Assembly (NCBI GenBank): GCA_030447245.1
Contig: JAUJPG010000023.1
Location: 1-64,000, forward strand
Source of the DNA: Chloroflexota bacterium
GTDB taxonomy: Bacteria > Chloroflexota > UBA6077 > JACCZL01
DNA: 64,000 bases
Reading direction: 5' to 3'
Within the stretch, counting starts at the first letter, position 1; the number at the start of each line of letters is the position of its first letter. This document shows positions 22,212 to 40,408 of this stretch, piece by piece. Under the pieces are notes generated by a model, which saw only the letters and a list, made by a program, of their open reading frames with translations, ran no database searches and was not told where the DNA came from. The position numbers and the translations under genes are program-made.

Positions 22212-22671
22212 TTAGTCCGAGGTGTGCTGGCGGGGTGCCGCTCAGCATCGTGTACGATGCCGCCGAGACGTCATGCGCCAGGTCGTGGACTTTCTTGCCC
22301 AGGGGCGCCGCGCGCGTGACGTCCTCGGCCCGCAAGGCCTCCTCGAGCCCATCATCTGCCCGGCCAGATCGCCGACCATGCCCTGCATCGACTCGGGCCA
22401 GTCGGTGGCCTGCGTCGCGATCCTGGTCTGCCGCACGTTCCCAAGCGCTCCCAGGCATCATCGCCGGCCGCTGGGCTCACGTCGATGTCGTGGAGGCCCG
22501 ACGTCGAGCTGGAAGGTGACGGCCATCATCTGCGCCTTCTGCGCCATCTTCATGGCGTTCTCGCTCTCTTGGGCAGACACCGCGGGCGCGGTGTACGCGA
22601 CGGTCGCGAGGGTGAGCGCGGCGCCGGGCGGCCAGGCCGGCCAGGGCGAACAACAGGTTGTTGCGTTGCAT
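22212..22671 (-). pseudogene. Exported helical protein of unknown function, frameshifted
   Basis: The ATG at 22671 (complement) overlaps the stop of the CopC frame as TGATG. It starts MQRNNLLFALAGLA, and after a one-base frame change continues GAALTLATVAYTAPAVSAQE, together a good signal peptide with an AxA site. Further pieces in other frames read NAMKMAQKAQMMAVTFQLDV, then DWPESMQGMVGDLAGQMM, then LGKKVHDLAHDVSAASYTML. At least four frame changes are needed to join them. I do not recognise the family. Its place inside the copper locus suggests a periplasmic accessory role. Confidence 0.5.
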
Positions 22672-23696: not shown

Positions 23697-23837
23697 CCTT
23701 CCCTCCGACCAGGTGGAGCATACGGCAGGGAACGCGCCGTAGGCCAACGATTGCCGACCGCCGCCCTGCTGACGGCGCGGCGCCGACGGACCCAAGCGCA
23801 GCCGCGCTTCTTCACCTAGCTCTCTACCGACTACTCG

Positions 23838-24430
23838 TCACAGGCTCCCCTTGGTTGAGGGCACCTGGTCGGCAATCCGCGGGTCAGGCCGTGTCGCGAG
23901 CTCGAGGGCGCGGGCCAGCGCTTTGAAGGTCGCCTCGGCGCGGTGGTGGTCGTTCTCGCCGGCGAGCAGCCGTACGTGGAGCGTCAGCCGCGCTTCGATC
24001 GCGAACGAGCGGAGGAAGTGGGGGACCATTTCGGTCGGAAGCTGGCCGATCATCTGGCCCGCGAACGGCAGGTCAATGCTGGCGAACCCACGCCCGCTCA
24101 GGTCGACCGCCACGTGGATCAACGCCTCATCTAGCGGGACGGTCGCGTCGGCGAAGCGGCGCAAACCGCGCTTGTCGCCAAGTGCGCGGTCGAGCACCTG
24201 GCCGAGCACGATTGCAACGTCCTCGGCGGTATGGTGCGCGTCGACGTGGAGGTCGCCGGCGGCCTGGACGGTCAGGTCGAAGCGCGCGTGCCGGGCGAGG
24301 CTGTCGAGCAGGTGGTCCAGGAAGCCAACACCGCGGCGATCTCCGCCGCTCCAGTCCCGTCCACGTCGAGCGAGAGATCAACCGTTGTCTCTCGCGTCTC
24401 GCGCTGGAGCTGGGCGATGCGGTGCGGGAG
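23838..24430 (-). pseudogene. hisB: Imidazoleglycerol-phosphate dehydratase, frameshifted
   Basis: Sixth step of histidine synthesis; needs two manganese ions held by HHxxE-type motifs. Both are readable: VDAHHTAEDVAIVLGQ and NDHHRAEATFKALARA, the second in the ORF that ends at 23838. The N-terminal part, QLQRETRETTVDLSLDVDG, is in another frame and joins near 24330, where GVGFLDHLLDSLARHARF continues. No start codon is seen just before the N-terminal homology, so a second indel is likely near 24430. No other his genes are nearby. Confidence 0.82.
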
Positions 24431-24614
24431 CTTGGGGACGACACGCCGAACACCTCCGAAGGCAGAGCGTTGCTGGCCGCGAGTCTCCGCCAGTATGCGC
24501 CCCTGGGCCGGGCTCGTCGTCGCGCGGGAACCTCCAGACCGCATACTCCGGAAGCTACGCTACGGCGCGGGCGACGCGTCACCTGCCGCCCGCACTGCGC
24601 GGAAAGGCTCTGCC

Positions 24615-26090
24615 GTGGAAGGCAACGCTCTACTATGGGTGCTAGTCGCATGCGTGGGACTGGCGGTAGGTCTCGGCCTGGCGCTGGCGCGGCCGCGACG
24701 TCCTTCGTCCGAGCGCACCGACTTGCTTGCCGAGGCGCATGCCGCGCACGACGAGCTGCTGCGCGCGCGCGCCGCGCGCGGTCCCGGAAGAGCGCTCGAG
24801 GCCGAAGGCGCTGCTCGCCAGGCACTCAGCGTGATCGAAGAGACCGAGCGCCGCCTCTCCGCCGCGAAGAGCGCCTTCGAGCCGGGCCGACGGCCTGGCG
24901 GCCCGTGAGGCCCAGGCCGCGTCTCGTGAGGCGGAGCTTGACCAGCGCGATGAGGGGGTCCGACAGCGCGGGACGAGGAGATGGCCGAGTTGGAGCGTGT
25001 CCGCGCCCTGGGGCCCGAGGAGGAGCGTGGATTGCTGCTCGAAGAAGTCGCACCGCCTGTTCGCGAGGCGGCAACCGCGCGCGGCATCACCGTCCTCCGC
25101 GAATCTGGAGCAAACCTGCGAGATGGTTCCAGCGCGTTCAGCCGCGCTCGCCGTTCAGCGCACCTGAAAGACCTGGTCGGCGAGTTCACCCTGGTCCCGA
25201 TTCCGATCCCGCGCGATGACGTCAAAGGCGCGGATCATTGGGCGCGAGGGGCGCAACATCTAAGGTTTTCGAGGCCGCCACCGGCATGTCGAGCTGGTCG
25301 TCGACGACGCGCCCGAGATAGTCACGTTGTCGGGCTTCGACCCTTAGGCGCGAAGTCGCCCGTCGAGCCCTACTGGATCTTGTCGAGGACGGGCGAATCC
25401 ATCCGCCGGATCGACGAGGTTGTCTCCCACACCCGTGAGATGCTTGGTCGGCAGCCCGGCAATGAGGCCTGGCCGCCCGAGGTCGCCGAGGTTGAAACGA
25501 TTCCCCCAGAGCTGGCCGAGTTGTTCAAGCGCCTGCGGCTGTTCCGCGGCGGCAGCGAGGACGCACTCAGCGCGTCGGTGCGACTGACCGGCCTGGCGGC
25601 GACGATGGCCGCCGAGCTCAGGGCCGACGTGCGCATCACGCGACGGGCGGCGCTGCTGGCAGGATCTGGGTCGAGCGGTCGGCCGAGGCTGACGGCTCGA
25701 CCCAGGCGATCCTGCTGGACGTGTTGACCTGGCTGGCGAGTCGCTGGCCGTCATCGCGGCCGTTCGACGACCCGCGAGCTTTACCCGAGGTATCGCCGAA
25801 CAGCGGCGGTCTGGCTGGCCTCGAGCGGTCGTCGAGGCTGGCCTCGGCGCGCGGGAGGAGCTTCCAGTTCGCCGCGTCGAAGCCATCGAGCGGGTGCCGT
25901 CCTCGTCGACGCGCAGGCAGTTCGCCTTCCAGTTTGGCACGCGCGTCATCCTGCTGCTCCGCCCGACCGAACCGAGACGCGCCGGGTACGTTCTCCTCGC
26001 GGACGGCGTGATCCAGCGTCTTGAGGCCTGCTGGGGCCGCGTGTCGGACTGACCGTCGCCGTGCAGGGCCAGACCCTGCGGCGGGCGTAG
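24615..26090 (+). pseudogene. RNase Y-like protein with altered HD domain, frameshifted
   Basis: GTG at 24615 with GGAAAGG starts a membrane helix (LLWVLVACVGLAVGLGLALA) followed by a coiled coil, LERVRALGPEEERGLLLEEV, the KH domain (VPIPIPRDDVKG, then RIIGREGRNI and VTLSGFDP in other frames) and GRIHPPRIDEVV. This is the order of RNase Y. In the HD domain the usual QHS, HDIGK and GSH residues read SAS, QDLGRAV and GST, so the metal ligands seem absent. The C-terminus VILLLRPTEPRR and GRV-LTVAVQGQTLRRA also matches RNase Y. At least six frame changes occur. It may be a non-catalytic paralogue. Confidence 0.65.
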
Positions 26091-26250
26091 TGACGCCGCG
26101 CACGGCAACGGGCTGCCCGGCTTGAGAGCGGGCGCTTCGGCGGGCGCACGCGATCGCGCCGGTCTGGCCAGGCCGCCGACTTCGGGACGGGCAAGCGGGT
26201 CGGGTGGGCTTCGCCCCGCCTCGGGCTGAACATTCGGCTCGGGCCGAACG

Positions 26251-27466
26251 TTGAACTCCGCGCGCCGGGCTGCTTCTCGCCGCTACGCTGTTGGCGCTGA
26301 TTGGGCCTGGATGCCCGCCGGGCCGGTGCCAGCCCTGGAATGGAGCTCGCCGAGTTGTGGAGCCAGATCGTCCGCGTGCGCGGCCTGGAGCCCTCGCGGA
26401 CGTTGCCGTCGAGCCGCTTGATCGCGAAGCCTTGCGGGCGAACCTGTCATCCGAGCTGCCAACGCCGACCCCCGCCCGCCGCAAGCTGCTGATCCTTCTT
26501 GGAATACTGCCGTCTGAGCTCGACTCCTGAAGGGCTAACACTCGACCTCCTGGGTGCACGCCATCGTCTGTACAGCCGGCCGACAAGCGCCTCTACTCCT
26601 CACCCAGAACGCCGACGCGAACGCTGTCGATCGCCTCGCCCTTGCGCACGAGTTGGCGCATGCCCTGCAGGATCAGCACTTGACCTTCTTCCACCCTTTA
26701 CCTGTGGGGATCAGGACTGGCCGTGCCGCGGCGGGCGTCGTCGACGGCGACGCTGATGCTCACCATGCTCCGCTGGGGTCGGCGCTTTCTGAGGCCCGAG
26801 GAGAAGCTCCGCTCGTCGAGCCGATCGCGCGCCTGGGGCCGCCGAGCTGGCCGAAGCGCCGCCGTGGTCCGCGAGGAGCCCCTTCTCCCGCATCGGGAAG
26901 GGCTCGACTTCGTCCGAGCGCTCGACGCACGTGGTACTCGACGCGGTCAACCAGGCGTTTGACCACCCGCCGCTCTCCACCGAGCAGGTCATGCACCCCG
27001 ACAAGTACCTCAACGGGGAGGTGCCGCGTCGGTCAATGCTGCCAGTGATGGCTGGCCCGCTCGGTCCTGGCTGGCTGAAGACCGACACACTCGGCGTATT
27101 GTATCTCCGCATGCTGATCGAGCAGTATGCGGATTCCGAGGAAGCCGTCGTCGCCGCTGCTGGCTGGGGCGGCGACATCGTGGAGCTGCTCGAAGACGAA
27201 GCCGGTCGACTGTCGCTCGTCCTGGCGTCACCGTCTGGGACGCCGAAGCCGAGGCGGCTGAATTCTACATGCCCAGGAGCGTGCATCGCCTGCCGCTTCG
27301 GCGTCGGGTGCACGACGCGCGCTCGGCCTGCCGTCGCTGAGCCGCTGGTCAGCCCCGATTGGCGAGATCCGCTTCCCTGTGGCCGGGCGACCAGGTGGTG
27401 ATGCTCGTGGCTCCGACCGCCCAGCTCCTGGACGTGATGGCGGCGCAGTTCCGGCCAGGCCACTGA
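26251..27466 (+). pseudogene. HELAH zinc metallopeptidase-like lipoprotein, frameshifted
   Basis: Pieces in different frames form one protein. A lipoprotein-like signal (GLLLAATLLALIGPGC) near 26265 is followed by PARRKLLILLGILPSELD, then LALAHELAHALQDQHL with the HExxH zinc motif near 26640-26690. Further on are PLSTEQVMHPDKYLNGEVPR, LGVLYLRMLIEQYADSEEAV and a C-terminus GDQVVMLVAPTAQLLDVMAA ending at TGA 27464. This pattern (HExxHALQDQH, later STEQxxHPxKY) is familiar from uncharacterised exported proteins of Chloroflexota and Actinobacteria. At least five frame changes are needed. Confidence 0.6.
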
Positions 27467-27486
27467 TGGTCCACGAGGAGAGGGCC

Positions 27487-28282
27487 ATGCAACGACGGCC
27501 TGGGCGGACCGCGTTGAGGTGCCGACGATCGGGTGGGGCACCAGGTGACCTTCGATGCCGGTGCACTGGAGGAGGCTTCCGCCACAAGATCCTGATGGAA
27601 GCGGTTGAGGCCGAAGGCGGAATTCGTCGACTCGTCCCCGATGTACGGCGAGGCGGAGCGCGTCCTCGGCGATGCTGTCCGCTCGATTCGCGAGCAAGAA
27701 ATGGCCACCAAGGTCTGGACCCTTCGGCCGCGGGGTCGGCGCTGATCGATGCGTCGCTTGCGTACTTCGGCGGTCGAGTCGACTTCTTCCAGATTCACAA
27801 TCTGGTCAGCTGGTCGACCACCTGGTAGAGCTCGAGCGGCGACGCGAGGTCGGCACCGTCCGTTGGATCGGCGCCACCCACTACGAGCATGCAGCGTTCG
27901 ACGAGTTGCGGCGAGTGATGGAGACGGGCAGGACGGCATCCAGATCCTGTACAACGCCGCCGGACGGGTCGTCGAGCGGGAGATTCTGCCGCTGGCAGCC
28001 GAGCTGACCTTGGGGTGGTCGTCATGCGCTCCGTTCGGCAAGGGCGTCCTGGGCCCGCCAGGCGCCGCCCGCGTCCGAGCTGCGGCCGCTCGAGCGCTAC
28101 GGGATCCAGACCTGGGCCCAGGCGCTGCTCAAGTGGATCCTGGAGCGACCCCGCCGCGTCCACGTCCTGATCCCGCTACGTCCAGGGAGGGGCGCATGAC
28201 CGAGAACGCCGCGGCCGGCCCCACCTCTGGCTCGAGCCCGAAGACCGCGAGCGAGTCGCATCCTCGCGTCAGAAATCCATGA
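27487..28282 (+). pseudogene. Aldo/keto reductase, frameshifted
   Basis: ATG at 27487 follows AGGAG. Segments in alternating frames give PTIGWGT, then EFVDSSPMYGEAERVLGDAV with the catalytic Asp and Tyr, MATKVWT with the catalytic Lys, DFFQIHNLVSW with the catalytic-region His, EVGTVRWIGATHYEHAAFDE and FGKGVLGPPG. This is the TIM-barrel order of the family. NADPH-dependent reduction of a carbonyl is expected; the substrate is unknown. The 3' end is uncertain and close to the convergent MoaD-like gene. Confidence 0.68.
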
Positions 28283-28309
28283 AGGCCGAACGATCGATCG
28301 AGGCCTGCG

Positions 28310-28571
28310 CTACCAAAGGGATAGTCCGGCCTGGTCGGGATCCCCGCTGACCGGGATCAGAGCCAGCTCGTCACCGTCGGCCAGTGGCGCTGACGCCTGG
28401 ACGTCGCTCTTGATACACCGCCAGCATCGCTTGATCGGTCCCCGACCCCAGACCTGGATAGTCGGCGCGCAGGCGTCGATCCACCGGCCGCAGTCGCGCC
28501 CACCGCGTCAACGGTCGATCACCGCGCCGACGGCCCGCGGGGAAGGCGCGACATAGCCGGCGAACCCGCAT
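28310..28571 (-). pseudogene. MoaD/ThiS-like small protein, frameshifted
   Basis: On the complement, ATG at 28571 begins MRVRRLCRAFP; later frames give RLRADYPGLGS, AMLAVYQE and QASAPLADGDELALIPVSGD, ending at TAG 28310. The last piece is the typical MoaD C-terminal strand. MoaD normally ends in GG for thiocarboxylation; here SGD is followed by PDQAGLSLW, so either the reading frame shifts again or this is not a working sulfur carrier. A molybdoenzyme is encoded at 36.9 kb. Confidence 0.5.
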
Positions 28572-28605
28572 GCCCGGAGTATACGGCTACCCACCCGCCC
28601 AACTT

Positions 28606-30092
28606 TCAGGATGGCTCGCGCCAGGACGCGTTCAGGTGCTCGGCGGGATAGCTCGAGGCCAGGTGGAGCAGCGCAGGCCAAAGATCGCGACAACGGATAG
28701 CCCCATGATCGTGGTGTAGGTCATCGGCTGGAAGACCGACCAGACGTACTTGAACACCACATAGTTGAGCACGCCGCCGAAGCAGAACAGCAGCGCCCGC
28801 CGTGCAGCGAGCGGTTCGGCAGCAGCGCCAGCGCCACGAGCCAGGTCAGGTACCAGGGCTCCCACCAGATGCAGGCGAACGTCAGGTAGGCGAATGACGT
28901 CGGGCCGCGCCCAACCAGCCTTCCCAGAGCGGACCCGCGATTGGCACGCCGCGGCTGCTCGACCACCACCAGCCCACGCGCGCCAGGACGTACAGGCTGA
29001 ACCCTACCCCGCCAGAGTGGCGGCAAGGCGTCCGCCTTCTTCCAACTCCCGCGTTTGACGGAAGTACTCGCGGAGCATCGTCGGGTCGAGGCGGTAAACC
29101 AGTTCCCCCGCGTGAGGAAGTGCAGCGTTCGCGTTCCTCCCAGAACGGTGCGTAGCAGCACCGCGAGCGCCAGCGCGATTGCACCGCCTCCGAGTATCCA
29201 GATCGCCTTGTGCCGCCCGGGGCGCGTTGACCCGCAGAAGCCCAACGAGAAAGGCCGCCGAGCGCGACGGCGAGCGCCTTGGTCAGCACGGCCGCTCCGA
29301 AGAGCGGGAACACCAGCAGACGCGGCCCGCTGACGAGCGCCCCGATTGCGAGCAGGACGAACAGGACCATCGCGACGTCGTTAGTGCGTTGCCGGCCAGC
29401 TCGAACTGGAGGAGCGGGTTCCAGGCGAAGAGGAGCGTGCCGGACGGGCGCCATGCAGGCGTCGCCGGGTGCGGCGGGAGCAAGTGCCAGATCACCACCG
29501 AGCAGCCGACGTAGGTCAGCAGGGCGGTCAGCTTGAACAGGACGAGCCCGGCAAGCAGACTCCCACCGGCCAGGGCGGTCGGGACCAGGCTCGCGTACAA
29601 CCAGATCGGCCTGTACACGGTGGCCTCACGCGGCCACGGCGAGAAGCGGACGAGCGTGTCCGCGAACTCGGCCGGGTGGCTGGACAAACGGGTTGCCGCC
29701 GTGGACCAGCACAATCCGTCCGTACATCAGGTAATCGTAGACGTCGAGCGCCGCGACCGGGATAGATCCCAATGAGCAGCACGCCGAACCCAATCTGCCC
29801 GCCCAGGATCAGCGGCAGGCCGCCGCCGCCGTCGCTTGACGGCGTGGTAGGCGCCGTACTGGAGGGCGAAGAGGAGCGCAAAGGCGCCGAGAAAGACCGC
29901 CTGTCCCTCGGGCGTGTAGCGACTGAGCCAGGTGTAGTCGAGGTTCGGCTGGTCGTACAAACGCCAGAGCGGCCAACGCAGGGTAAAGGCCGACAGGTAC
30001 ACCGCCGCGCTCGCAGCGCCGATGACGGCGAGCCACTCGGCCGAGAACCGGCGCGTAGTCTCGGCGCCGCGCGCGGCAAGGCCAGTCGTCAC
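28606..30092 (-). pseudogene. Polytopic membrane glycosyltransferase-like protein, frameshifted
   Basis: GTG at 30092 starts a long hydrophobic protein reconstructed from five frames. Pieces include AVYLSAFTLRWPLWRLYDQP, GGGLPLILGGQIGFGVLLIG, LYASLVPTALAGGSLLAGLV, FAWNPLLQFELAGNALTNDV and ALVSGPRLLVFPLFGAAVLT, and it ends with LHLASSYPAEHLNASWREPS at TGA 28606. The membrane-helix pattern and the WNPLLxxELxGNxHND-like motif are those of lipid-linked-sugar glycosyltransferases of the GT-C type (DUF2029/ALG group). About 480 residues if the frame is repaired. Confidence 0.6.
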
Positions 30093-30301
30093 GGCACGGC
30101 CGATGCCCCCGTCCTCAAGCGCGGCGTGGCTGTTGGCGACAGCCAGCCGGCCAACGCCGGGCGGTGTCTGACAACGGCGAGCCTAACGAGGTTCATCAGT
30201 CTGAAGGCGAGCAGCCAGCCGATCTCGAAGGTGCACATGCGGGGCCTCGCCGGATACTAGCACGCGGCCCGAGCCGGCCCGGCTGGCACCCGCGGAGGTA
30301 T

Positions 30302-30316: not shown

Positions 30317-30349
30317 CAGATGCGGACTGCGCGTTGCCAGGGTGAGCAG

Positions 30350-30847
30350 ATGTTTGGAACAATCCTGCGTGGCGAGGACGTGACCTTGCCGGTGGCCGAG
30401 GAGCCGGTGCGAGTGAGCGACGCGACGCAGATCATCGAGCGGCTGACCGAGGACGGACATCGTCTCACGACGCCGCGTCAGGCGATCATCAAGCTGGTCG
30501 CCCCGCGCACCGACCATTTCAGCGCCCAGGAAGTCTGGGACCAGGTCCGCGGCAAACACCGTGGCATCGGGCGGGCGACGGTCTTCCGAACGCTCGACCT
30601 TCTCGCCGAGTTGGGTGTCCTGAACCGCGTCCACGTTGGCGACAACTGCCACCGCTACACGGTCTGCGAGACGACCCACCACCACCACCTCATGTGTATC
30701 CAGTGCGGCAGCGTCGTCTCGCTAGACGCGGCCCCCGTCGAGCGGCAGATCCGCGAGATGGCCGGCGACGCTGGCTTCGAGCTGCTGACCCATCACCTCG
30801 AGCTCGTCGGTCGCTGCTCCACCTGTCGCCGCGCATCGTCGGTCTGA
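30350..30847 (+). CDS. zur: Fur family transcriptional regulator, probably Zur
   Basis: 165 residues. Winged-helix domain with GHRLTTPRQAIIKLV and the recognition part GIGRATVFRTLDLLAELGVL, then the dimerisation domain with THHHHLMCIQCGSV and CSTC, the structural zinc cysteines, and HHLELVG. ATG at 30350 follows GGGTGAG; ATG at 30320 would place the start beside the operator. Two zinc/manganese-type transporter genes follow on the same strand, so zinc is the most likely signal, though manganese or iron cannot be excluded. Confidence 0.85.
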   Translation: MFGTILRGEDVTLPVAEEPVRVSDATQIIERLTEDGHRLTTPRQAIIKLVAPRTDHFSAQEVWDQVRGKHRGIGRATVFRTLDLLAELGVLNRVHVGDNCHRYTVCETTHHHHLMCIQCGSVVSLDAAPVERQIREMAGDAGFELLTHHLELVGRCSTCRRASSV

Positions 30848-30978
30848 GCTGCTGGCCTGCACCCAGAATGCTGAGGACGGCTCGGTTCCACGAACCATCG
30901 TGTGATCCTGAGCCTGTGTGTCGTCGAGACGGGCCTTGCCTGCTCCATCGGAGCTGAGGGGCCTTCTCGGGAGCGGGT

Positions 30979-31812
30979 GTGACGACAATGTCCACGGCCA
31001 CTGACGAGACCGCGCCGAAGCTCCCGCGGCCGCCGCTCGGCGCGAGACCGATCGTCGAGCTCACCGGCGTCACGGCCGGCTATCGGGGCCAATCGGCTCT
31101 GGACGGCATTTCGCTAGCCCTGCCAGGCGGCTGCATGGTCGCGGTCGTCGGCCCCAACGGCAGTGGCAAGTCCACCCTGCTGAAGCTGCTGCTCGGGCTT
31201 GTCGTTCCGTGGTCGGGCATGGTCGAGGTTTTCGGCCAGACGCCGCGCGCGACGCGCCGCCGCGTCGGCTACGTCCCACAAACAGGTGCCGGCGACTGGA
31301 GCTTCCCGGTGACGGTCGGCGAGGTGGTGATGATGGGCCGCTACGGACGGCTGGGCCTCTTCTCGCGGCCCGGTCGCCTGGATCGAATGGCGGTCGCCGC
31401 CGCGCTCGAGCAGGTCGGCATGGCCGAGCACATGGACGAGCAGGTCGGGGAGCTTTCCGGCGGTCAGCGCCAGCGCGTCTTCCTGGCCCGCGCGCTGGCC
31501 CAGCAGCCGGAGCTGCTGTTGCTGGACGAGCCTCTGGTCGGAGTCGATGCGGTGACCGAGCAGGACGTGTACGGCCTGCTTGCCGGGTTGCGCGATCGCG
31601 GCGTGACCGTGCTGTTCACCACGCACGACCTGTCCACGCTGGCCGACCACTTCGACCTGGCCGTGTTCCTCAACCGCCGAGTCGTGGCCTTCGGCCGCCC
31701 TGAAGACGTCGTCACGGAGGAGCACCTGAGAACGGCGTACGGGCCGCGCATGAGCCTGGTGCAAATCGGCGGCCGGTTCTTCGCTGTCGATACCGGCGCT
31801 CACCATGACTGA
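30979..31812 (+). CDS. znuC: Metal ABC transporter ATP-binding protein (ZnuC/MntB type)
   Basis: 277 residues. Walker A GPNGSGKSTLLK, Q-loop GYVPQTGAGDWSFPVTVGEV, signature LSGGQRQRVFLARALA and Walker B LLLLDEPLVGVDAVTEQ are typical of the zinc/manganese importer ATPases. GTG at 30979 with GGGAG upstream; ATG at 30988 is an alternative. It lies 130 bases after zur and 21 bases before the permease. No binding-protein gene (ZnuA) is seen in the window. Confidence 0.9.
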   Translation: MTTMSTATDETAPKLPRPPLGARPIVELTGVTAGYRGQSALDGISLALPGGCMVAVVGPNGSGKSTLLKLLLGLVVPWSGMVEVFGQTPRATRRRVGYVPQTGAGDWSFPVTVGEVVMMGRYGRLGLFSRPGRLDRMAVAAALEQVGMAEHMDEQVGELSGGQRQRVFLARALAQQPELLLLDEPLVGVDAVTEQDVYGLLAGLRDRGVTVLFTTHDLSTLADHFDLAVFLNRRVVAFGRPEDVVTEEHLRTAYGPRMSLVQIGGRFFAVDTGAHHD

Positions 31813-31833
31813 CTCGCCTCTCGGACGCTCGGC

Positions 31834-32712
31834 GTGACCGCGTTTGGCCAGCTCCTCCTCGAGCCCTTTCAACTCGCCTTCATGCAGCGGGCGCTGGCCG
31901 CCACGGTCCTGGTCGGGCTGGTCTGCGCTGTTGTCGGTGCCTTTGTCGTCTGGAAGGGCCTGTCGTTTATCGGCGACGCTCTGGCCCACGCCTCATTCGC
32001 GGGAGTCGCGGCTGCCTACGTGCTCGGGCAGAGCATCTACCTTGGCGCAGCGGTCGCCGCGGTCGCGACCGCCTTGTCGATCACCTTTCTAAGCCGCCGG
32101 GCACGGCTCAGCGTCGACACGGTGATCGGGGTGCTGTTCGCCTTCGCATTCTCGCTTGGCATCGTCATCATGAGCCGTGTTCGCAACTACACTGGCGACC
32201 TGTTCGGTTTTATCTTCGGCAACGTCCTGGGGATCGGGTCGAGTGACCTGGTCGTCATCGCCATCTCGGGCTCGGTCATCGTCGGCGTCGTCCTGCTGCT
32301 CTACAAGGAGCTGTTCTTCGTGGCCTTCGACCCGGTTATGGCCGAGGCCAGCGGTCTGCCGGTCGCGGCGCTCCAATACTCCCTGTTGGTGTTGCTCGGG
32401 GCGACGGTCGTCGTCGCGATGCAGGCGATCGGCATCATCCTGGTCGTCGCGATGCTCGTGACGCCGGCGGCCACCGCCTCGATGGTGACGCGGCGTTTCC
32501 ACCGCATCATGCTGCTCGGCGGCGCGCTGTCGACCGTCGCGTCGGTCGCCGGGTTGTATCTGTCGTACTACGCAAACGTCCCGTCAGGCGCGGCAATCGT
32601 CCTGGTCAGCACGGCGATGTTCCTGGCGACGCTCTTGGTCACCAACCTCGGCTCCAGGCCACGCGCAGCGGCCGCCGCGGCGGGGGTGGGGCTGACCGCG
32701 GCTGAGTTCTAG
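31834..32712 (+). CDS. znuB: Metal ABC transporter permease (ZnuB/MntC type)
   Basis: 292 residues with about eight hydrophobic helices. The N-terminus FMQRALAATVLVGLVCAVVG, then WKGLSFIGDALAHASFAGVA, and AIGIILVVAMLVTPAATASM are hallmarks of the ABC-3 permease family. Start GTG at 31834. It forms the importer channel with the ATPase just upstream. Confidence 0.92.
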   Translation: MTAFGQLLLEPFQLAFMQRALAATVLVGLVCAVVGAFVVWKGLSFIGDALAHASFAGVAAAYVLGQSIYLGAAVAAVATALSITFLSRRARLSVDTVIGVLFAFAFSLGIVIMSRVRNYTGDLFGFIFGNVLGIGSSDLVVIAISGSVIVGVVLLLYKELFFVAFDPVMAEASGLPVAALQYSLLVLLGATVVVAMQAIGIILVVAMLVTPAATASMVTRRFHRIMLLGGALSTVASVAGLYLSYYANVPSGAAIVLVSTAMFLATLLVTNLGSRPRAAAAAAGVGLTAAEF

Positions 32713-32824: not shown

Positions 32825-33196
32825 ATGTTCGGACGATTCAGGCTTATGGCGCAGATCCTCGGGACAGGACGGCTGGCACTTGGATTGTTGCGCGACTCGC
32901 GCGTGCCGATGGGCGCCAAGCTCATCCTGGGCGCAACGGCGGCGTACCTGATCCTGCCGATTGACCTCGTGCCAGACGTAATCCCGGGCCTGGGACAGGC
33001 TGACGACGTGCTGGCGCTACTAGCCGGGTTGAACCTGTTCATCCGTGCCTGCCCGCGCTGGCTCGTCGACGAGCACGAACGTCGGCTGGGCGGCAAGCAG
33101 CGCCAGGGGATGGGGTACTCGGGGGCAAGTAACGGCCAGGACCCAAGCAACAGCGCTGGGCCCGTGATCGAAGGCCGCTATCGCCAGGTCCGCTAA
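32825..33196 (+). CDS. DUF1232 (YkvA-like) membrane protein
   Basis: 123 residues. The family core is plain: YLILPIDLVPDVIPGLGQAD followed by DVLALLAGLNLFI. It has one or two hydrophobic segments and a polar C-terminal tail. A strong AGGAGG ribosome site at about 32810 precedes the ATG. The function of DUF1232 proteins is unknown. Confidence 0.88.
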   Translation: MFGRFRLMAQILGTGRLALGLLRDSRVPMGAKLILGATAAYLILPIDLVPDVIPGLGQADDVLALLAGLNLFIRACPRWLVDEHERRLGGKQRQGMGYSGASNGQDPSNSAGPVIEGRYRQVR

Positions 33197-33327: not shown

Positions 33328-34488
33328 ATGATGGGCGGATGTGGAGCGTTGCCGCTGCTCGTGGTCCAGGGAATCTTCGGTGCGCGAGTCCTGCTACGTC
33401 TGGCACGGACGGCACGCGGGACGCCGATCTCGGCTGTTCCCGCCACGAGAGCGATTCCTGGCCAGATCAGCATTGTCGTGCCGGTCCTGAACGAGGCCGG
33501 GCGTGTCGGGCCGTGCCTTCAGGCGCTGATCGCCCAGGACGCGAGCGTCGCCGAGATCCTGGTGGTTGACGGCGGCTCGACCGACCGCACGCCCTCGCTA
33601 GTGGAAGAGTATGCCAGGCGGGACGGCCGCGTCCGGCTGGTGGACGCGACTCCGGTTCCGGCCGACTGGAACGGGAAGGTCTGGGGCCTGGAGGTTGGCT
33701 TGCGACAGGCTAGACCGCAAGCTGCATGGCTGTTGACGATCGACGCGGACGTGTTAGCCGCCCCGGCGTTGGCGCGCTCGCTCGTCGCCCATGCCCGCCT
33801 GCTGGAGCTGGACGCGTTCAGTGTAGCTACCCTCCAGCACCTGTCGGGCCCCGCCGAGGCGCTCATCCATCCGGCGTTCCTGACGACGCTGGTCTACCGG
33901 CTGGGTGGCCCCGGCCGCATTGCCGCGCGCGTCCAGAGCGTCCAGGCAAACGGTCAGTGCTTTCTCTTTCGGCGTGAGGTGCTCGACGCACGGGGTGGGT
34001 TCCGGAGCGCCCGTGCGTCGCGCTGCGAGGACCTGACGATCGCTCGCGACCTGGTGGCCCACGGGCATCGGATCGGGTTTTATGAGATCGATGGCCTCGC
34101 ATCTGTCAAGATGTACGCGAGCTGGCGCGAGGCGTGGCACAATTGGCCCCGTTCGCTGCCACTCGTCGACCAGTTCGCCCGGACGGCGAGCGTCCTCGGG
34201 CTGCTGGAGGTAACGTTCGTGCAAGCGCTGCCGATCCCCCTCCTGCTCCTCTTTCTCGCACGCGCTCGACTGCACGGCCTTCTGGGACCCGCCATCGCGC
34301 TGAACGCGCTGCTCGCCGCCATCCGACTTGGCGTGCTCGTAGGCACCGCCCGGGCATACCCCGATCGGCCATCGACCTATTGGTTCTCGCCGGTCTGCGA
34401 CGTGCCCGCTGTGGTCCAGATATGGCGGAGCCTGCGGCGGCGCCGGCATGTCTGGCGTGGCCGAGTGATGGTCGACGGAGTCTCTTGA
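33328..34488 (+). CDS. GT2 glycosyltransferase, carotenoid-cluster (CruC/CruG-like)
   Basis: 386 residues. An N-terminal membrane segment, then a GT-A domain with ISIVVPVLNEAGRVGPCL, VDGGSTDRTP and the DxD-like IDADVLAAP, followed by about three C-terminal helices. It lies directly before the CruF-like gene (TGATG overlap), the arrangement expected for carotenoid 1'-hydroxyl glycosylation. Specificity is inferred from the neighbours; ATG at 33331 is an equal start choice. Confidence 0.8.
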   Translation: MMGGCGALPLLVVQGIFGARVLLRLARTARGTPISAVPATRAIPGQISIVVPVLNEAGRVGPCLQALIAQDASVAEILVVDGGSTDRTPSLVEEYARRDGRVRLVDATPVPADWNGKVWGLEVGLRQARPQAAWLLTIDADVLAAPALARSLVAHARLLELDAFSVATLQHLSGPAEALIHPAFLTTLVYRLGGPGRIAARVQSVQANGQCFLFRREVLDARGGFRSARASRCEDLTIARDLVAHGHRIGFYEIDGLASVKMYASWREAWHNWPRSLPLVDQFARTASVLGLLEVTFVQALPIPLLLLFLARARLHGLLGPAIALNALLAAIRLGVLVGTARAYPDRPSTYWFSPVCDVPAVVQIWRSLRRRRHVWRGRVMVDGVS

Positions 34489-35334
34489 TGCACGCCGCGA
34501 CCCGGCCTGCTGGGGGCTCATCTCTTCGCGCTCGTCTTCGGCCTGATCGGGATGCTCGTGATGATCCCCCACCCGTGGCTGTGGGTCGGCAACCCCATCC
34601 TGGTTCAGGTCTTCTCGCTCAGCATGCAGCACGCGCCGAGTGCTGCACATCCTGCTCGGCGCGGCGGCGATGCTCGCGTTCGGCTCGCGCTTCGTTGGCG
34701 CGCGGAAGACGCTCACCTTCTTCATCGTCTCGACGGTCCTGTCGTGCAGCTTCGAGCTATTCGGGGCCGGGACTGGCTGGCCGTTCGGTGCGTATCAGTA
34801 CACCGAGGGCTCGGGGCCAAGATCGGCGACCGCGTGCCATATACGATCCCGCTCTCCTGGTTTTACATGGGTTTCGCCTCCTACCTGCTGGCTGGCACGA
34901 TCGTGGGCCGATTGATGCGGCGGCGCGTCGGCTGGTGGACGGTCCTGCTCGGTTCCTGGTTTCTGATGGTCTGGGACCTGGTGCTAGACCCCGCGATGGC
35001 CCATGAGTCGCTGCCGATCCGCTTCTGGGTCTGGCATCAGACTGGCCCCTACTTCGGGATGCCGCTCCAGAACTTCGTCGGCTGGTATGCGACAGGGCTG
35101 CTCTTCATGGCGGTGAGCCGCTGGTTGTGGCGCGGGGACGTCGCTCCGAACGGTGCGCCCGCCCTGTTCTCGCTGATCGTCTACGCGGCCAACCTTCTGT
35201 TCGGAATGGTTCTCAGCGGCAGCGTCGGCCTCTGGGTGCCAATCCTGTTGGCGATCGTCCTCGGGCTGGCACCGGCCAGCGTTGCCTGGCGCCCGAGCCT
35301 CGCCCGAGCCCCCGTCCTCGCTCGTGGCACCTAG
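34488..35334 (+). pseudogene. cruF: CruF-like carotenoid hydratase (DUF422), frameshifted
   Basis: Adds water to the 1,2 bond of an acyclic psi end group. ATG at 34488 begins MHAATRPAG; removing one G from the run at about 34511-34515 keeps the frame into HLFALVFGLIGMLVMIPHPW. Two more changes, near 34640 and 34810, join LHILLGAAAMLAFGSRFVGA and SFELFGAGTGWPFGAYQYTE to GAKIGDRVPYTIPLSWFYMG and the rest, which is intact to the stop (VWDLVLDPAMAHE, FVGWYATGLLF). All family parts are readable, so base errors are more likely than decay. Confidence 0.78.
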
Positions 35335-35342
35335 TCCGAGGG

Positions 35343-36197
35343 ATGAGGGACGTGAAAAGCACGTTCCATCACGCCTCACGCCTGGTCTCTCACGCCTCGT
35401 TTGAGCCATTCGCCCGCGTCGCAATCCGCCAATTTTGTATCGTGGCGGTGTCCCGGCGGATGGCCCCACGCGTCCAGGGTTTGGAGTTCATCCCGCCCGC
35501 CGGTCCGGTGGTGCTGGCCGGCCGCCACTATCATCATTTCTGGGATGCCGCGATCCTGCTGGCCTCTGTCCGCCGCCCACTCCACTTCCTCGTCGCTTTG
35601 GACTGGGTGCACGCGTCCCGTGAGCGGCGATTGATGGAGTGGGCCTGCCGAGCCGCGCGCTGGCCGGCACTGCTCCGGGCGGAGCGAGTCGGGGTCGACG
35701 GTGGCGTGTACCGTCCCGAGGATCTCGATCCGTACGTGCGGCGTGCCGCTCGCGACGCCGTCGAGCTTCTGCGTCAGGACCGAGCCCTGGTCGTCTTTCC
35801 CGAAGGCTATCCGACGGTCGATCCGGAAGGATCGCGCAAGCGCCGAGCTGACGCGTTCTTGCCGTTCCGCGCAGGCTTTGTCCGATTGGTGGTGCTCGCC
35901 CAGCGCACCGGTTCCGTCCGTATCCCGATCGTGCCATTTGGGCTTGCCTACCAGCCTGCCGGCGGGCCTCAGGTGCTCCTCCGAATCGGCGCCCCAACGT
36001 ACCTGCAGCCGGGCACTGACCCTGAGGCGTTGGCGGCGGTTGTCGAGGCCCGAGTGCGCTCGCTCTCGGCGCCGCTCAGTCGGGCCCACGTCCCCGCGCC
36101 GTCGACCTCTCGCCCGAGGCGGCCCGGGAGCGGCGCCAGATGGTGGACCTTTCGTCGTCAGGCGAGTCCAGCATCAAGATGCCCTGGACCACCATGA
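35343..36197 (+). CDS. PlsC-type acyltransferase (CruD-like)
   Basis: About 284 residues. Acyltransferase domain with GRHYHHFWDAA in the place of the usual NHxxxxD motif, and VVFPEGYPTV as the FPEG motif, then PIVPFGLAY. The first motif has the histidines one position away from the normal HX4D spacing. In Chloroflexus-type pathways a similar enzyme (CruD) acylates the carotenoid glucoside, and the position here fits. The last 40 residues are arginine/serine-rich and overlap the convergent lycopene cyclase gene by 122 bases, so the true end may be earlier. Confidence 0.75.
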   Translation: MRDVKSTFHHASRLVSHASFEPFARVAIRQFCIVAVSRRMAPRVQGLEFIPPAGPVVLAGRHYHHFWDAAILLASVRRPLHFLVALDWVHASRERRLMEWACRAARWPALLRAERVGVDGGVYRPEDLDPYVRRAARDAVELLRQDRALVVFPEGYPTVDPEGSRKRRADAFLPFRAGFVRLVVLAQRTGSVRIPIVPFGLAYQPAGGPQVLLRIGAPTYLQPGTDPEALAAVVEARVRSLSAPLSRAHVPAPSTSRPRRPGSGARWWTFRRQASPASRCPGPP

Positions 36198-36462
36198 CGT
36201 TGGTCAACAGGAAGAACACGGCCTCTTCAAGCGGCAGCCCTCCGATCCAGACGTTCAACGTCAGCTCTGGATTGAGCGACCAAATGCCAACCCGAATCGC
36301 CAGCGCGTCGGCCAGCGAAAGGTACAACGTTGGGATGAGCACTGCCCCCAGCAGCAGGCGGAGTTGTGCCCAGAGGATCTCCCGCGCCAGTACCCACTGC
36401 AAGACGATGATCGGCAGTGCCCAGATCAGCTCCGTCCCGAGGTACGTCCACTGACCCATCAA
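36076..36462 (-). CDS. crtYd: Lycopene cyclase domain protein, CrtYd-like subunit
   Basis: 128 residues, about three helices. The lycopene cyclase domain motif LPLEEAVFFLLTNVMVVQG is present, after GIWSLNPELTLNVWIGG. In actinobacteria and relatives two such small subunits make one heterodimeric cyclase. ATG at 36462 overlaps the stop of the partner gene by four bases. The polar C-terminal tail overlaps the convergent acyltransferase ORF. Confidence 0.87.
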   Translation of the reverse strand: MMGQWTYLGTELIWALPIIVLQWVLAREILWAQLRLLLGAVLIPTLYLSLADALAIRVGIWSLNPELTLNVWIGGLPLEEAVFFLLTNVMVVQGILMLDSPDDERSTIWRRSRAASGERSTARGRGPD

Positions 36463-36830
36463 TCTGGTTCCGCGCCCCGCACGGGGCGTTTCGGACGGCG
36501 GTCAGGCGCAACATGAGGCTCCGAACCCGGCACGCGCGACCGGCGTAGCGCCAGCAGCACCAGGCCGGTCAGAATGGTTTGGAGCCCGTAAAACAGGTAC
36601 TCTTCAAGCGGGACGTAGCCGATGATGATGCCGGCGATCAGCGACCGGTCGTAGGTCCAGACCCCAAGCGCGACGATCAGGTTGTCCCACGGCGTCGTGT
36701 ACGCAAAGGCCACCAGCGCCAGGATAGCCAAGGAGCGCAGATACCGCGCGCTGAGTCGCCGCCGCAGAGCTATGCCAAACACCACAATTGGCAGGACGAG
36801 AAAGACGACGAGGAATTGCCCGTAGCTCAC
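36459..36830 (-). CDS. crtYc: Lycopene cyclase domain protein, CrtYc-like subunit
   Basis: 123 residues, three helices. Motifs VAFAYTTPWDNLIVALGVW and GYVPLEEYLFYGLQT are typical of the CrtYc half. The pair should close a beta ring on one or both ends of lycopene. Together with CruF, which needs an open end, a monocyclic product is expected. Confidence 0.88.
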   Translation of the reverse strand: MSYGQFLVVFLVLPIVVFGIALRRRLSARYLRSLAILALVAFAYTTPWDNLIVALGVWTYDRSLIAGIIIGYVPLEEYLFYGLQTILTGLVLLALRRSRVPGSEPHVAPDRRPKRPVRGAEPD

Positions 36831-36902
36831 GGCACACCCTCAGCGGGGATCGGCGAACATTCTGCGCGCCCCCAAGATCATACGATCCGGGCCCGGCCCG
36901 GG

Positions 36903-38372
36903 GTGACTGCTCGAACGGCGCAGCGCCGGGGGGAGCTCGCGGCGCTCTCGGCGCTGGTGTCCAGCGCGCTCCTGGCCGGGTTGGTCGGCGCCCCGCCGCC
37001 CCTCGAGCCGCTGGCGGCACTCATCATGGAGTGGACGCCCGTCCCGGTCGCCAACGCGCTGTTGGACGCGCTCGGACGCCTGGGCAAACCCCTTGCCCTC
37101 TGGGGCGCCGCCGCGCTCGTGCTGGCCATTGGCGGCCCGCTCGCGATCCTTGCCTGGCGCGGACCATTCGGCAGCCTGAATGGCGCCGCGGTGACGACAG
37201 TGGCTCTGCTGCTCTGCTGGCCACTGTTCAGGCCCACCTCGACGCTCGGGCCGGCGACCCTCCTGGCCGCCTACCTGCTCGCGCTGGGATGGCTCGGCCT
37301 TCGTCGACCTGCCCACTCGGCCGATTTGGTCGGTCGGCGTCAGTTCCTACTCGTCGCTGCGCGGAACGCCGGGGCGCTGGGTCTGGTCAGCCTCCTGCCA
37401 CTCGCCGCGGCGGCCGCTCGTGCCGCCGTGCACGGGCGGACCGCGCGTGGGCCACTCTTCCCGTTTTCGCCCCCGAGCCCGCGCGCGGCCGGCTATGACC
37501 TGGAGGGGCTGACCCCAGAAGTCACGTCCGCCGGCTCGTTCTACCGGATGAGCAAGAACGTCGCGGACCCGGTCGTCGACGGGAACGTCTGGAGCCTGAC
37601 CATCTCCGGCCAGGTTCGGAAGACGATAAGCCTGACTCTGGACGATGTAGCGTCGTTGCCGCGCACCGACCGCTGGGTCACCATGCAGTGCGTCAGTAAC
37701 CCCGTCGGCGGGCCTCTCTGGAGTGCTGCGCTCTTCTCCGGCGTCACTCTCGCCGAGGTGCTTGGTCGGGCTGAGCCGCTGCCGGGTGCCGCCTGGGTCA
37801 GCTTCGAGGCGCCGGACGGCCACCGCGAGCAGCTCCCGCTGGCCCGGGCGCTTGACCCGTCGGTGCTGGTCGCGTATGGAATGAACGGCGACTGGCTGGA
37901 GGGGCCCCACGGGTTCCCAGTCCGCCTGCTGGCGACCGGCCTGTACGGCTTCCGCAGCGTCAAGTGGCTGTCCAGGATCGACGTCCGCGACGAGCCACGC
38001 CCCGGGCATTGGGAGGAGCGAGGTTGGACCGCTGCTGACGTCCACACCACGGCGCGGGTCGACCTGGTCCGCCGCGATCCCGCCGTCGGAACTCGCGCCC
38101 TTGGAGCCGGAGTTGCGTTTGCCGGCCTGCGCGGCGTGAGCGCGGTTGAGGTGCGGGTTGATGGCGGCTCCTGGCGGCCGGCCGAGCTCCACGTGCCGCC
38201 GCTCGCGCCGGCGATGTGGGTCCAGTGGCGGGCCGAGTTGGACCTACCGCCTGGCGAGGCGCGCGTCGAGGCGCGGGCGATCGACGGCCGCGGGGTTCCG
38301 CAGGATGTAACCCCGCGCGGCCAGTACCCGATCGGTGCGGCCGGCCTGCATGGGCTGGTGGTGCGAGGCTGA
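36903..38372 (+). CDS. Membrane-anchored sulfite oxidase-like molybdopterin enzyme
   Basis: 489 residues. Four or five N-terminal helices (about 10-140), then an internal twin-arginine-like VGRRQFLLVAARNAGALGLV before the catalytic domain. The molybdenum-binding Cys is in VTMQCVSNPVGGPLW, followed by FEAPDGHREQLPLARAL, YGMNGDWLEGPHGFPVRLL and the SVKWLSRI segment of the sulfite-oxidase fold, with a C-terminal dimerisation domain. No haem domain is seen. GTG at 36903. Divergent from crtYc, followed directly by a GT2 gene (TGA-ATG), so it is physically part of the carotenoid run. Confidence 0.86.
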   Translation: MTARTAQRRGELAALSALVSSALLAGLVGAPPPLEPLAALIMEWTPVPVANALLDALGRLGKPLALWGAAALVLAIGGPLAILAWRGPFGSLNGAAVTTVALLLCWPLFRPTSTLGPATLLAAYLLALGWLGLRRPAHSADLVGRRQFLLVAARNAGALGLVSLLPLAAAAARAAVHGRTARGPLFPFSPPSPRAAGYDLEGLTPEVTSAGSFYRMSKNVADPVVDGNVWSLTISGQVRKTISLTLDDVASLPRTDRWVTMQCVSNPVGGPLWSAALFSGVTLAEVLGRAEPLPGAAWVSFEAPDGHREQLPLARALDPSVLVAYGMNGDWLEGPHGFPVRLLATGLYGFRSVKWLSRIDVRDEPRPGHWEERGWTAADVHTTARVDLVRRDPAVGTRALGAGVAFAGLRGVSAVEVRVDGGSWRPAELHVPPLAPAMWVQWRAELDLPPGEARVEARAIDGRGVPQDVTPRGQYPIGAAGLHGLVVRG

Positions 38373-39671
38373 ATGCAGCGCTGCCGCCGTCGCGTGAGTC
38401 ACCGTCCCCGAATGGTGCGATCCCTCGCGTCCTCGGCCGCCCTGGCTGCCCGCATCGCGCCCTGGGACTCACTGGCGCTTCAGGCGGGCTTTGCGGTCCG
38501 ATCCTGGGCCGGCTACCGTCGATGGCCGAGCCTGCCCGAAGGGCCGGCGCCGTCTCAGCTGCCGCCTGTCTCGATCATCGTCCCCGCTCGCGACGAGTCC
38601 GACAATCTCTTGCGGCTGCTGCCCTCGCTGCTCTGCCTGGAACCGGCGCCGACGGAGGTGCTGGTGGTGGACGATCGATCCATCGACGACACCGCCGCTG
38701 TTGCCGCCGGCTTCGGCGCCCGCGTCCTCCAGGCCACCGAGCCGCCGGCGGGCTGGAGCGGGAAGAACTGGGCCTGCCAGCTCGGACGGCGCGAAGCGCG
38801 AGGCGAGTGGCTCCTGTTCACCGACGCCGACACCTGGCACGCCCCGGCGTCGATGGGAGCGGCGCTGCGCGCCGCGCTCGTCGAGGAGGCCGATCTGCTG
38901 AGCGTGCTGACCGGCCAGGACTGTCGCGGCTTGTGGGAGAAGCTGGTCCTGCCCTTCGCCTACGGCCAGTACTTCGCGGCCGCCCAACCCGAGTGGGCTA
39001 ATAACGATCGTGCGCCAACCGCGTTGGCGAATGGTCAGTACCTGCTCGTCCGTGCCGCCGCCTACGATCGGGTCGGCGGCCACGCGGCCGTCCGCGGGAG
39101 CCTTGGCGAGGACGTCGACCTCGCGCGTCACCTGCGCCGCGCCGGGGGCCGGGTCCGGGTCCTTCGCGCAGAGCGGCTGGTCCGGGTGCGGATGTACAGG
39201 TCGCTCGCCGGGATCCAGTCCGGGTTCCGCAAGTACATGGCCGGCTACCTCCGAGCATACTGGCCGCATGGCATCCTCGTCGCCGCCTCGACGGCCTACG
39301 CCGGGCTCCCGCTGATCAGCCTTGTCCAGGCGCTCTTGGGACGCGGTCCGGCCACGCCAGCGTCCGCCGCCTTGGCGTACGCCATTGGGGTAGCGGCCTA
39401 CCTGCCCTGGCTCCGCTGGTTCGGCGTGCAGCCGGCCTACGCCCTGCTCCAGCCACTCGCCTACGCCGCGTTCCAGGCCATCGCGCTGGAGGCTGGACTG
39501 CGGAGCCTTTTCGGCATCCGCGTGACCTGGAAAGGCCGGCGCTACCGCGCCTCATCACGCGGCCAAGGGCGAGCGAGGAGAGAGGCGAGACCAAAGGCGA
39601 TGGACCGTCGACGACTGCGTGACTGTCCGATCGCCCATCCTTGGGCATTCCTCGTTCGTCCTCGCAACTGA
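38373..39671 (+). CDS. GT2 glycosyltransferase, membrane-bound (second copy)
   Basis: 432 residues. GT-A domain with VSIIVPARDESDNLLRLLPS, VLVVDDRSIDDTAAVAAGFG and FTDADTW, then helices in the last third. The acceptor-side GEDVDLARHLRRAGGRV matches the (Q/E)D…RW-type region of membrane GT2 enzymes such as CruG and HpnB. The ATG lies directly after the molybdoenzyme stop; ATG at 38412 is an alternative. The last 40 residues are arginine-rich and unusual. Confidence 0.82.
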   Translation: MQRCRRRVSHRPRMVRSLASSAALAARIAPWDSLALQAGFAVRSWAGYRRWPSLPEGPAPSQLPPVSIIVPARDESDNLLRLLPSLLCLEPAPTEVLVVDDRSIDDTAAVAAGFGARVLQATEPPAGWSGKNWACQLGRREARGEWLLFTDADTWHAPASMGAALRAALVEEADLLSVLTGQDCRGLWEKLVLPFAYGQYFAAAQPEWANNDRAPTALANGQYLLVRAAAYDRVGGHAAVRGSLGEDVDLARHLRRAGGRVRVLRAERLVRVRMYRSLAGIQSGFRKYMAGYLRAYWPHGILVAASTAYAGLPLISLVQALLGRGPATPASAALAYAIGVAAYLPWLRWFGVQPAYALLQPLAYAAFQAIALEAGLRSLFGIRVTWKGRRYRASSRGQGRARREARPKAMDRRRLRDCPIAHPWAFLVRPRN

Positions 39672-40408
39672 TGGCGCGCTGGACGCGGGCGATCTCCTGG
39701 CTGCCGACCGATACACGCCGCGTGCTGGACGACGGCTCGGCGTTCGGATTCGCCACCGTACGCGTGCATCGCGCACTCCAATCGGGTCGTGGCCAGGCGC
39801 CGCTTGTCGTCGGGCTGGAGTACGATGCCCGCTACGTCAACCGCGCCCGGCGATCGTACCCGTGGCTCGAGTTCGTGCGCGGTAAAGCCGAGGAGCTGCC
39901 GTTCTCGGCCGGCGCGTTCGACGCGGTCCTGCTGCTGGATGTGCTGGAACACCTGCCGTCGGAGGAGCCGGCGCTGGCCGAGGTCTGGCGCGTGCTTCGC
40001 CCCGGGGGGGCGCTCCTGACCAGCGTCCCCTACCTTGGCCCGCTGGCTTGGGCGGACTCGCTCAACGTGTACGGAGACCTCCGCCGGCGGCTGCCGTTCC
40101 TTCTACCGCTAGACGCGACCGAGCAAGGATGTCCGCGTCACCGCCACTACTCGGTGGCTGACCTGGACATCCTGCTCAGCGGTCGCTTCCAGATCGAACG
40201 CGTCGCGCGGACCGGCCTCGGACTGGCCGAGCCGATCAACCTGGCCCTTCTTCTGCTCTGTCGAGGCCTGCTTCGCTCCGGCCACGCGTACAACGCCCTT
40301 CGCTATCTCTACTACGCCGTCCATCTGGCCGAAGACCTGGTGCCAGCCGGCCGCTGGGGCTACAACCTGACTGTCCGCGCGCGCCGGCTGGACGCAGCCC
40401 CCTGCTAG
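39671..40408 (+). CDS. SAM-dependent methyltransferase, class I
   Basis: 245 residues. The glycine-rich SAM loop is partly changed (VVGLEYDARYVNRARRSYP gives the acidic residue of motif II). The later VLLLDVLEHLPSEEPALAEV and RVLRPGGALLTSVP are clear Methyltransf_11 motifs. Start ATG at 39671 overlaps the GT2 stop (TGATG), so it belongs to this operon. It might modify the carotenoid sugar or a quinone; not decidable. Confidence 0.8.
   Translation: MARWTRAISWLPTDTRRVLDDGSAFGFATVRVHRALQSGRGQAPLVVGLEYDARYVNRARRSYPWLEFVRGKAEELPFSAGAFDAVLLLDVLEHLPSEEPALAEVWRVLRPGGALLTSVPYLGPLAWADSLNVYGDLRRRLPFLLPLDATEQGCPRHRHYSVADLDILLSGRFQIERVARTGLGLAEPINLALLLLCRGLLRSGHAYNALRYLYYAVHLAEDLVPAGRWGYNLTVRARRLDAAPC

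Follow-up and report, generated by a model that had tools for sequence, protein, structure and literature searches.

Layout of the locus

The 64,000-nucleotide stretch analyzed here, which we call the window, is part of a Chloroflexota draft genome (G000), and between positions 33328 and 40408 it carries the cluster of carotenoid end-group genes that is the subject of this study. These genes form two adjoining sets, one per carotenoid end. The set for the open (psi) end, a cassette consisting of a glycosyltransferase gene (GT2a), a carotenoid hydratase gene (CruF) and an acyltransferase gene (AT), is of the Thermomicrobium roseum type, which has already been published. The set for the ring end is the new part: sequence comparison places a second glycosyltransferase (GT2b) and a methyltransferase (MT) in a module held together by the lycopene cyclase CrtYc/CrtYd and by a clade of molybdoenzymes (MoOx). 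We scored the proteins against Pfam and NCBIfam/TIGRFAM profiles with their gathering or equivalog cut-offs and found the following features, from left to right:

33328-34488, plus strand: GT2a, CruG-like glycosyltransferase of the open (psi) end (PF00535, 74.5 bits)
34489-35334, plus strand: CruF-type carotenoid 1',2'-hydratase with two frameshifts (PF04240 and NF045693, on pieces)
35343-36197, plus strand: AT, acyltransferase of the CruF cassette, with a predicted CruD-like role (PF01553, 39.8 bits; cut-off, 23)
36076-36462, minus strand: CrtYd-like lycopene cyclase subunit (TIGR03462, 73.1 bits; cut-off, 39.4)
36459-36830, minus strand: CrtYc-like lycopene cyclase subunit (TIGR03462, 66.9 bits; cut-off, 39.4)
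36903-38372, plus strand: MoOx, sulfite-oxidase-family molybdoenzyme, predicted to be membrane anchored (PF00174, 136.3 bits; cut-off, 24)
38373-39671, plus strand: GT2b, second glycosyltransferase, ring-end module (PF00535, 61.3 bits)
39671-40408, plus strand: MT, S-adenosylmethionine (SAM)-dependent methyltransferase, ring-end module (PF08241, 61.8 bits)

Both of the small, adjoining cyclase genes thus score above the TIGR03462 cut-off. CrtYc and MoOx are divergent and 72 bases apart, and at the GT2a-CruF and GT2b-MT joints the ATG overlaps the preceding stop codon (TGATG). The genes listed in the original prediction, which had been made from the window's sequence, are real, lie where it placed them and are confirmed by the profiles; its list omitted MoOx (36903-38372), and CruF does not run in a single frame.

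The ring-end module in other genomes

We searched 400 Chloroflexota genomes, in which GT2b had matches in 161 (at 1e-30) and MoOx in 207 (at 1e-35), and found the genomes carrying the module by fetching the neighborhoods of the best GT2b and the best MoOx matches. MoOx lay directly beside GT2b in 15 genomes (G000, which is that of the window, G001, G002, G031, G043, G052, G068, G222, G230, G250, G257, G272, G292, G300 and G306), and in 10 of these CrtYc/CrtYd adjoined MoOx on its opposite flank (G000, G001, G031, G043, G052, G068, G230, G257, G300 and G306), an adjacency that in G068 spans a contig break splitting MoOx. The contig ends on the cyclase side of MoOx in G002, G250 and G272; with readable flanks only, CrtYc/CrtYd adjoins MoOx in 10 of 12 module genomes, from several families. 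CrtYc alone is the neighbor in G230, where CrtYd lies farther off, beside crtI, and in G300 the genes crtB-crtI-CrtYd-CrtYc-MoOx-GT2b-acyltransferase-methyltransferase follow one another on one strand. The GT2b neighborhoods fetched from G110, G117 and G208 showed no MoOx-GT2b module. Among 40 chosen genomes, CrtYc/CrtYd was present in 10 of the 14 that carry the module (the exceptions being G002, G222, G250 and G292) versus 7 of the 26 others. This arrangement is found again across further genera and families, and the cluster is therefore beyond chance.

No CruF-family match was found in 5 of the 10 genomes in which CrtYc/CrtYd adjoins MoOx (G031, G043, G068, G257 and G300), and the ring-end module is therefore independent of the open-end cassette; the two were seen side by side only in the window, G001 and G230. 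GT2b and MT had originally been read as extra decoration on the known pathway, and we instead assign them to a separately conserved module with the cyclase and the molybdoenzyme.

The GT2b copies of the module form one clade in the glycosyltransferase (GT2) tree (support, 97). The nearest rows outside it are glycosyltransferases of G208 and G117, located with crtB, a flavoprotein desaturase and CrtYcd, the G117 locus also having a B12-binding MerR regulator and a PlsY-type acyltransferase. A further relative, with 43% identity over 234 residues, lies inside a carotenoid cluster on plasmid 2 of Deinococcus deserti; a plasmid search for module members outside Chloroflexota returned three records for GT2b. 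In the D. deserti cluster, the GT2b-like gene is accompanied by phytoene synthase, desaturases, a carotenoid biosynthesis protein and an acyltransferase, and the stretch (strain VCD115, plasmid 2, 163998-174887; L227) also encodes DoxX and a pair of FAD oxidoreductases, after which comes a methyltransferase. The hopanoid enzyme HpnB was considered and rejected as an identity for GT2b: the score against TIGR03469 is 176 bits, under the cut-off of 379.25, and the window genome has no match to squalene-hopene cyclase (PF13243). The score against CruG (NF045692) is 98 bits, under a cut-off of 600.

An acyltransferase, AT2, follows GT2b in eight module genomes (G031, G043, G068, G222, G250, G257, G292 and G300); it is a PF01553 protein in G031 and G292, and in G250 and G292 it shares one natural open frame with GT2b. 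The loci of G000, G001, G230 and G306 lack AT2; these are the four genomes that combine the module with a GT2a-CruF cassette. AT2 is likewise missing from the loci of G002 and G272, in which no CruF was found. Outside the four genomes with the cassette, AT2 is thus present in 8 of 10 readable module genomes, the locus of G052 being cut off. In G001, the GT2a-CruF cassette has no AT beside it. The lack of AT2 where the GT2a-CruF cassette is present hints at a single acyltransferase acting on both sugars, and it is no more than a hint because the lineages are related. Relatives of MT follow GT2b or AT2 in G000, G002, G230, G272, G031, G043, G068, G250, G292 and G300, as well as in G222, where the gene is cut by the contig end, and were not found at the module loci of G001, G257 and G306.

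MoOx is a member of the sulfite oxidase family by PF00174 and scores below each enzyme-level cut-off: 103 bits against 420 for SoxC, 88.7 against 600 for SorA, 67 against 570 for SorT and 57 against 207 for MsrP (NF003767). It shares with sulfite oxidase, sulfite dehydrogenase and MsrP the family sequence and the molybdenum-binding cysteine, which is kept in all 13 module copies aligned; unlike them, it misses the enzyme cut-offs and lies in a separate, carotenoid-linked clade. The 15 module copies form one branch versus 14 other family members (support, 100/100), and four genomes (G000, G001, G230 and G300) each supply a copy to both sides of the tree. MoOx reads CVSNPV where the chicken enzyme reads CAGNRR, and the sulfite-binding arginine, which we take to stand five residues after the molybdenum-binding cysteine in the chicken enzyme, is missing from the window MoOx and from the other Chloroflexota copies aligned. 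At one aligned position, all 13 module copies have Phe, whereas the others have Met (11 copies) or Leu (2 copies). Hydrophobic stretches lie ahead of the domain, and an internal RRQFL is followed by a hydrophobic stretch, an arrangement that resembles a Tat signal. In G230, a single 756-residue open frame spans CrtYc and MoOx and contains the domains of both, with a score for the cyclase domain of 26.8 bits against a Pfam cut-off of 27; there is room for an indel error here because the linker is of low complexity and the contig is a draft. An AlphaFold model of MoOx built from two sequences had a mean pLDDT of 38 and was not used.

These features bear on the possibility that MoOx is a repair enzyme resembling methionine sulfoxide reductase, coexpressed with the pigment genes under stress or light and leaving the pigment untouched, with everything else proposed here kept. 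Its family includes MsrP, and such enzymes may be coregulated with stress genes. The plasmid search outside Chloroflexota returned 53 records for MoOx, all general family members (the best among the matches listed having 41% identity over 60%), and on a Thermus plasmid the MoOx-like gene comes after a sigma factor and an anti-sigma factor gene, in a neighborhood that lists no carotenoid genes. Against a repair function stand the separate clade tied to CrtYc/CrtYd and GT2b, with nonclade copies in the same genomes, and the single CrtYc-MoOx frame of G230, on a contig that may carry indel errors. We regard repair as a serious contender that nevertheless falls short of being probable.

The open-end cassette and the lycopene genes

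The best 80 CruF loci from named records comprised 34 cyanobacterial and 46 other loci. In 44 of the 46 noncyanobacterial loci, CruF has GT2a and AT as its neighbors, and in 19 of these 44 CruF and AT are naturally joined in one open frame. The two misses are L097, where neither GT2a nor AT was found despite long flanks, and L128, where the contig stops 473 bases after CruF. At the cyanobacterial loci, a GT2a-like gene is present in 30 of 34, and an AT beside CruF was found in none of the 34 stretches fetched. Cassettes of the GT2a-CruF-AT type also occur in L109, L115, L121, L125 and L137, records titled Rhodospirillales and Candidatus Eremiobacterota, and therefore either the cassette has moved between phyla or bins are mixed.

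GT2a falls in a clade of CruF-adjacent glycosyltransferases (support, 98), and this clade is sister to the cyanobacterial CruF-adjacent glycosyltransferases (support, 100). Neither of the two outcomes that the original prediction named as refuting it was thus observed: crtB and crtI are present in the genome (see below), and GT2a lies with CruF-adjacent glycosyltransferases. For GT2b, the missing squalene-hopene cyclase match argues against HpnB. GT2a scores 305 bits against CruG (NF045692; cut-off, 600) and 120 bits against HpnB. The cyanobacterial CruF neighbor in L134 passes the same CruG cut-off with 624 bits. GT2a is not a CruG equivalog; it may act in a CruG- or CruC-like manner, on either the 1' or the 2' hydroxyl. 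The PF01553 domain of AT and its place beside CruF and a GT2 fit, and lead us to predict, a CruD-like carotenoid glycoside acyltransferase.

The Chloroflexus pathway had been offered as the model for the pigment, and we find closer documented parallels in the T. roseum cassette and in cyanobacterial CruF-CruG. Excerpts of PMC2615216 describe for T. roseum, in the region trd_1158-trd_1167, a GT2 beside a CruF-type 1,1'-hydroxylase with an acyltransferase, as in the window, and trd_1162 carries CruF and the acyltransferase in one frame and protein. According to the same excerpts, acylated carotenoid glycosides were seen by high-performance liquid chromatography (HPLC), and the source of the 2,2' hydroxyl groups was termed unidentified; unlike in the window, no lycopene cyclase and no MoOx-GT2b module are described there and the pigment is linear. 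Cyanobacterial CruF-CruG resembles the window in having a related GT2 beside CruF, in sister clades, and differs in having no acyltransferase in the fetched stretches and in the GT2 itself, the window protein lying below the CruG cut-off. The Chloroflexus hydroxy-gamma-carotene glucoside ester pathway (cruF, cruC and cruD) has the same predicted open-end chemistry, whereas its cyclase is given as crtY and a crtO ketolase is included, as far as the excerpts of PMC4155588 go. Staphyloxanthin CrtQ-CrtO and the Planococcus cruF-GT-AT genes likewise pair a glycosyltransferase with an acyltransferase, in Planococcus with a CruF-like hydratase, but these are C30 carotenoids, and the excerpts of PMC8502411 describe no cyclase or molybdoenzyme with them.

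A second, distant fusion of a PF04240 domain to an acyltransferase, of 532 amino acids, was found in Thermogemmatispora carboxidivorans PM5 (G089; L182, 5988-11668). After it come three HpnB-like GT2 genes in tandem, which group in a separate clade, and the product of that locus is possibly a carotenoid bearing several sugars.

The CruF gene of the window leaves its reading frame at about 34630 and returns to it at about 34809, in both cases without a stop codon close by. Its pieces score 54.8 and 146.1 bits in two frames against PF04240, above the gathering cut-off of 25, and 20.9, 55.7 and 160.3 bits against NF045693, for which the cut-off of 400 applies to the whole protein and the gene is frame-broken. 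In G001, from the same family as the window genome, the CruF frame is unbroken. The genes crtB and crtI, placed outside the window by the original prediction, were found by the genome search that it proposed: they are neighbors on contig C98 of the same genome, outside the window's contig, and both are frameshifted, crtB being in two pieces and crtI in several.

These breaks could mean that the cluster is decaying and that the pigment is no longer made. However, frame-change patches also strike unrelated genes of the window, at 22.5-23.0 and 25.3-30.2 kb (22498-30230), and a P450 gene on contig C75 is split into two adjoining pieces; the other cluster genes are open. Because the frame changes strike these unrelated stretches too, we attribute those of CruF, crtB and crtI to patchy assembly (indel) error, which is probably the better explanation, and consider decay quite improbable. 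Genes called within the frame-change patches of this assembly should therefore not be counted as pseudogenes. The patch on C98 covers 7800-11225 of L036.

The predicted pigment and the possible part played by MoOx

From these genes we predict, as the original prediction did for the open end on the strength of GT2a-CruF-AT and CrtYc/CrtYd, a monocyclic carotenoid with a hydrated, glycosylated and acylated open end, and we add a second sugar, at the ring end, contributed by GT2b. The data show the identities of the genes, the two conserved gene orders, the clades and the natural one-frame joins; from these we infer the substrates, which end of the carotenoid GT2b works on and all of the chemistry and topology of MoOx. 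The products of crtB and crtI, encoded elsewhere in the genome, would supply lycopene. At the open end, CruF would hydrate C-1', GT2a would attach a sugar and AT would put a fatty acid on that sugar. At the other end, CrtYc/CrtYd would form one ring, GT2b would attach a sugar, and MT, probably together with the shared acyltransferase, would complete the decoration. MoOx would take part in these ring-end steps. Its catalytic domain would face outward from the membrane, and its most likely task would be to prepare or oxidize the ring end ahead of glycosylation or alongside it. That the two modules decorate the ends of a monocyclic C40 carotenoid in this way, the ring-end sugar included, is the interpretation that we favor, with modest confidence.

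Several observations weigh against it. Members of the MoOx family are widespread in the phylum (the 207 of 400 genomes cited above); GT2a and GT2b fall below every NCBIfam equivalog cut-off; CruF, crtB and crtI of the window genome are not intact as assembled; and G001, from the same family, has neither the acyltransferase nor the methyltransferase at this locus. In 12 genomes tested, a CrtC-domain protein (PF07143) was present in all 12 and a P450 in 11, G052 having none. Finally, G222 and G292 hold MoOx-GT2b-acyltransferase-methyltransferase with a readable flank and no CrtYc/CrtYd beside it or in the genome, and G250 likewise has no CrtYc/CrtYd match in its genome, so that the module can exist without this cyclase.

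The G222 and G292 loci, together with the higher score of GT2b for HpnB than for CruG and the abundance of MoOx-type proteins, would fit a simpler scheme in which only the open end is decorated, giving a hydroxy-gamma-carotene acyl glycoside, and in which MoOx, GT2b and MT belong to another lipid pathway that happens to lie beside CrtYc/CrtYd. Three findings count against that scheme, namely the direct adjacency of the cyclase in nearly all module genomes with readable flanks, the lack of a squalene-hopene cyclase match in the window genome and the location of GT2b's nearest outside relatives in carotenoid clusters as well, and we judge it unlikely.

Within the favored two-module interpretation, MoOx may oxygenate or oxidize the ring end made by CrtYc/CrtYd and so supply the group to which GT2b adds its sugar. 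Six module genomes that bear CrtYc/CrtYd have no CruF-family match (G031, G043, G068, G257, G272 and G300), and a CrtZ-type hydroxylase (PF04116) is absent from all of them except G257, the only one of 16 genomes tested overall that has it; in G300, MoOx is the only unassigned oxidative step within the eight-gene run. However, given the occurrence of CrtC-domain proteins and P450s described above, MoOx is not the sole possible source of the hydroxyl group. Because this leaves the argument by elimination open, we put the carotenoid role of MoOx forward tentatively, as an idea that is rather doubtful as it stands.

The CrtC copy of the window genome, on contig C84 at about 48600-49700, is away from the carotenoid genes and is lipoprotein-like, with CrtC and Lipocalin_9 domains. 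We take this two-lipocalin protein to be AttH-like, but its presence leaves room for a hydratase. A PF01593 search of the same genome for a CrtD-like desaturase gave three matches, on C16, C95 and C34, of which those on C16 and C95 are by eye flavoproteins of the UDP-galactopyranose mutase type; the absence of CrtD is not established, because this search missed the frame-broken crtI itself.

If the proposed role is correct, MoOx would be a new route to the oxygenation of carotenoid end groups, in which a molybdenum cofactor takes the place of a nonheme iron hydroxylase or a P450; for the sulfite oxidase family, the reaction would be of a new type. Among the titles and abstracts listed in searches of open-licence PMC articles, none described a molybdoenzyme in a carotenoid cluster. 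A clade of molybdoenzymes that accompanies a lycopene cyclase together with a second glycosyltransferase offers a concrete candidate for an as yet unassigned step in end-group synthesis, and the module gives context to genes that automatic annotation would label sulfite oxidase or HpnB-like. In nonphotosynthetic relatives such as T. roseum, acylated carotenoid glycosides are believed to give the membranes order and protection.

To the left of the cluster, the window carries genes for a Fur-type regulator and an ABC transporter (30320-32712), an order kept in G001, where these genes lie directly upstream of the carotenoid genes. Between the ABC permease gene and GT2a is a small gene (32825-33196) that by eye is DUF1232/YkvA-like, and a similar one may occupy the same place in G001 (L037, 7810-8271).

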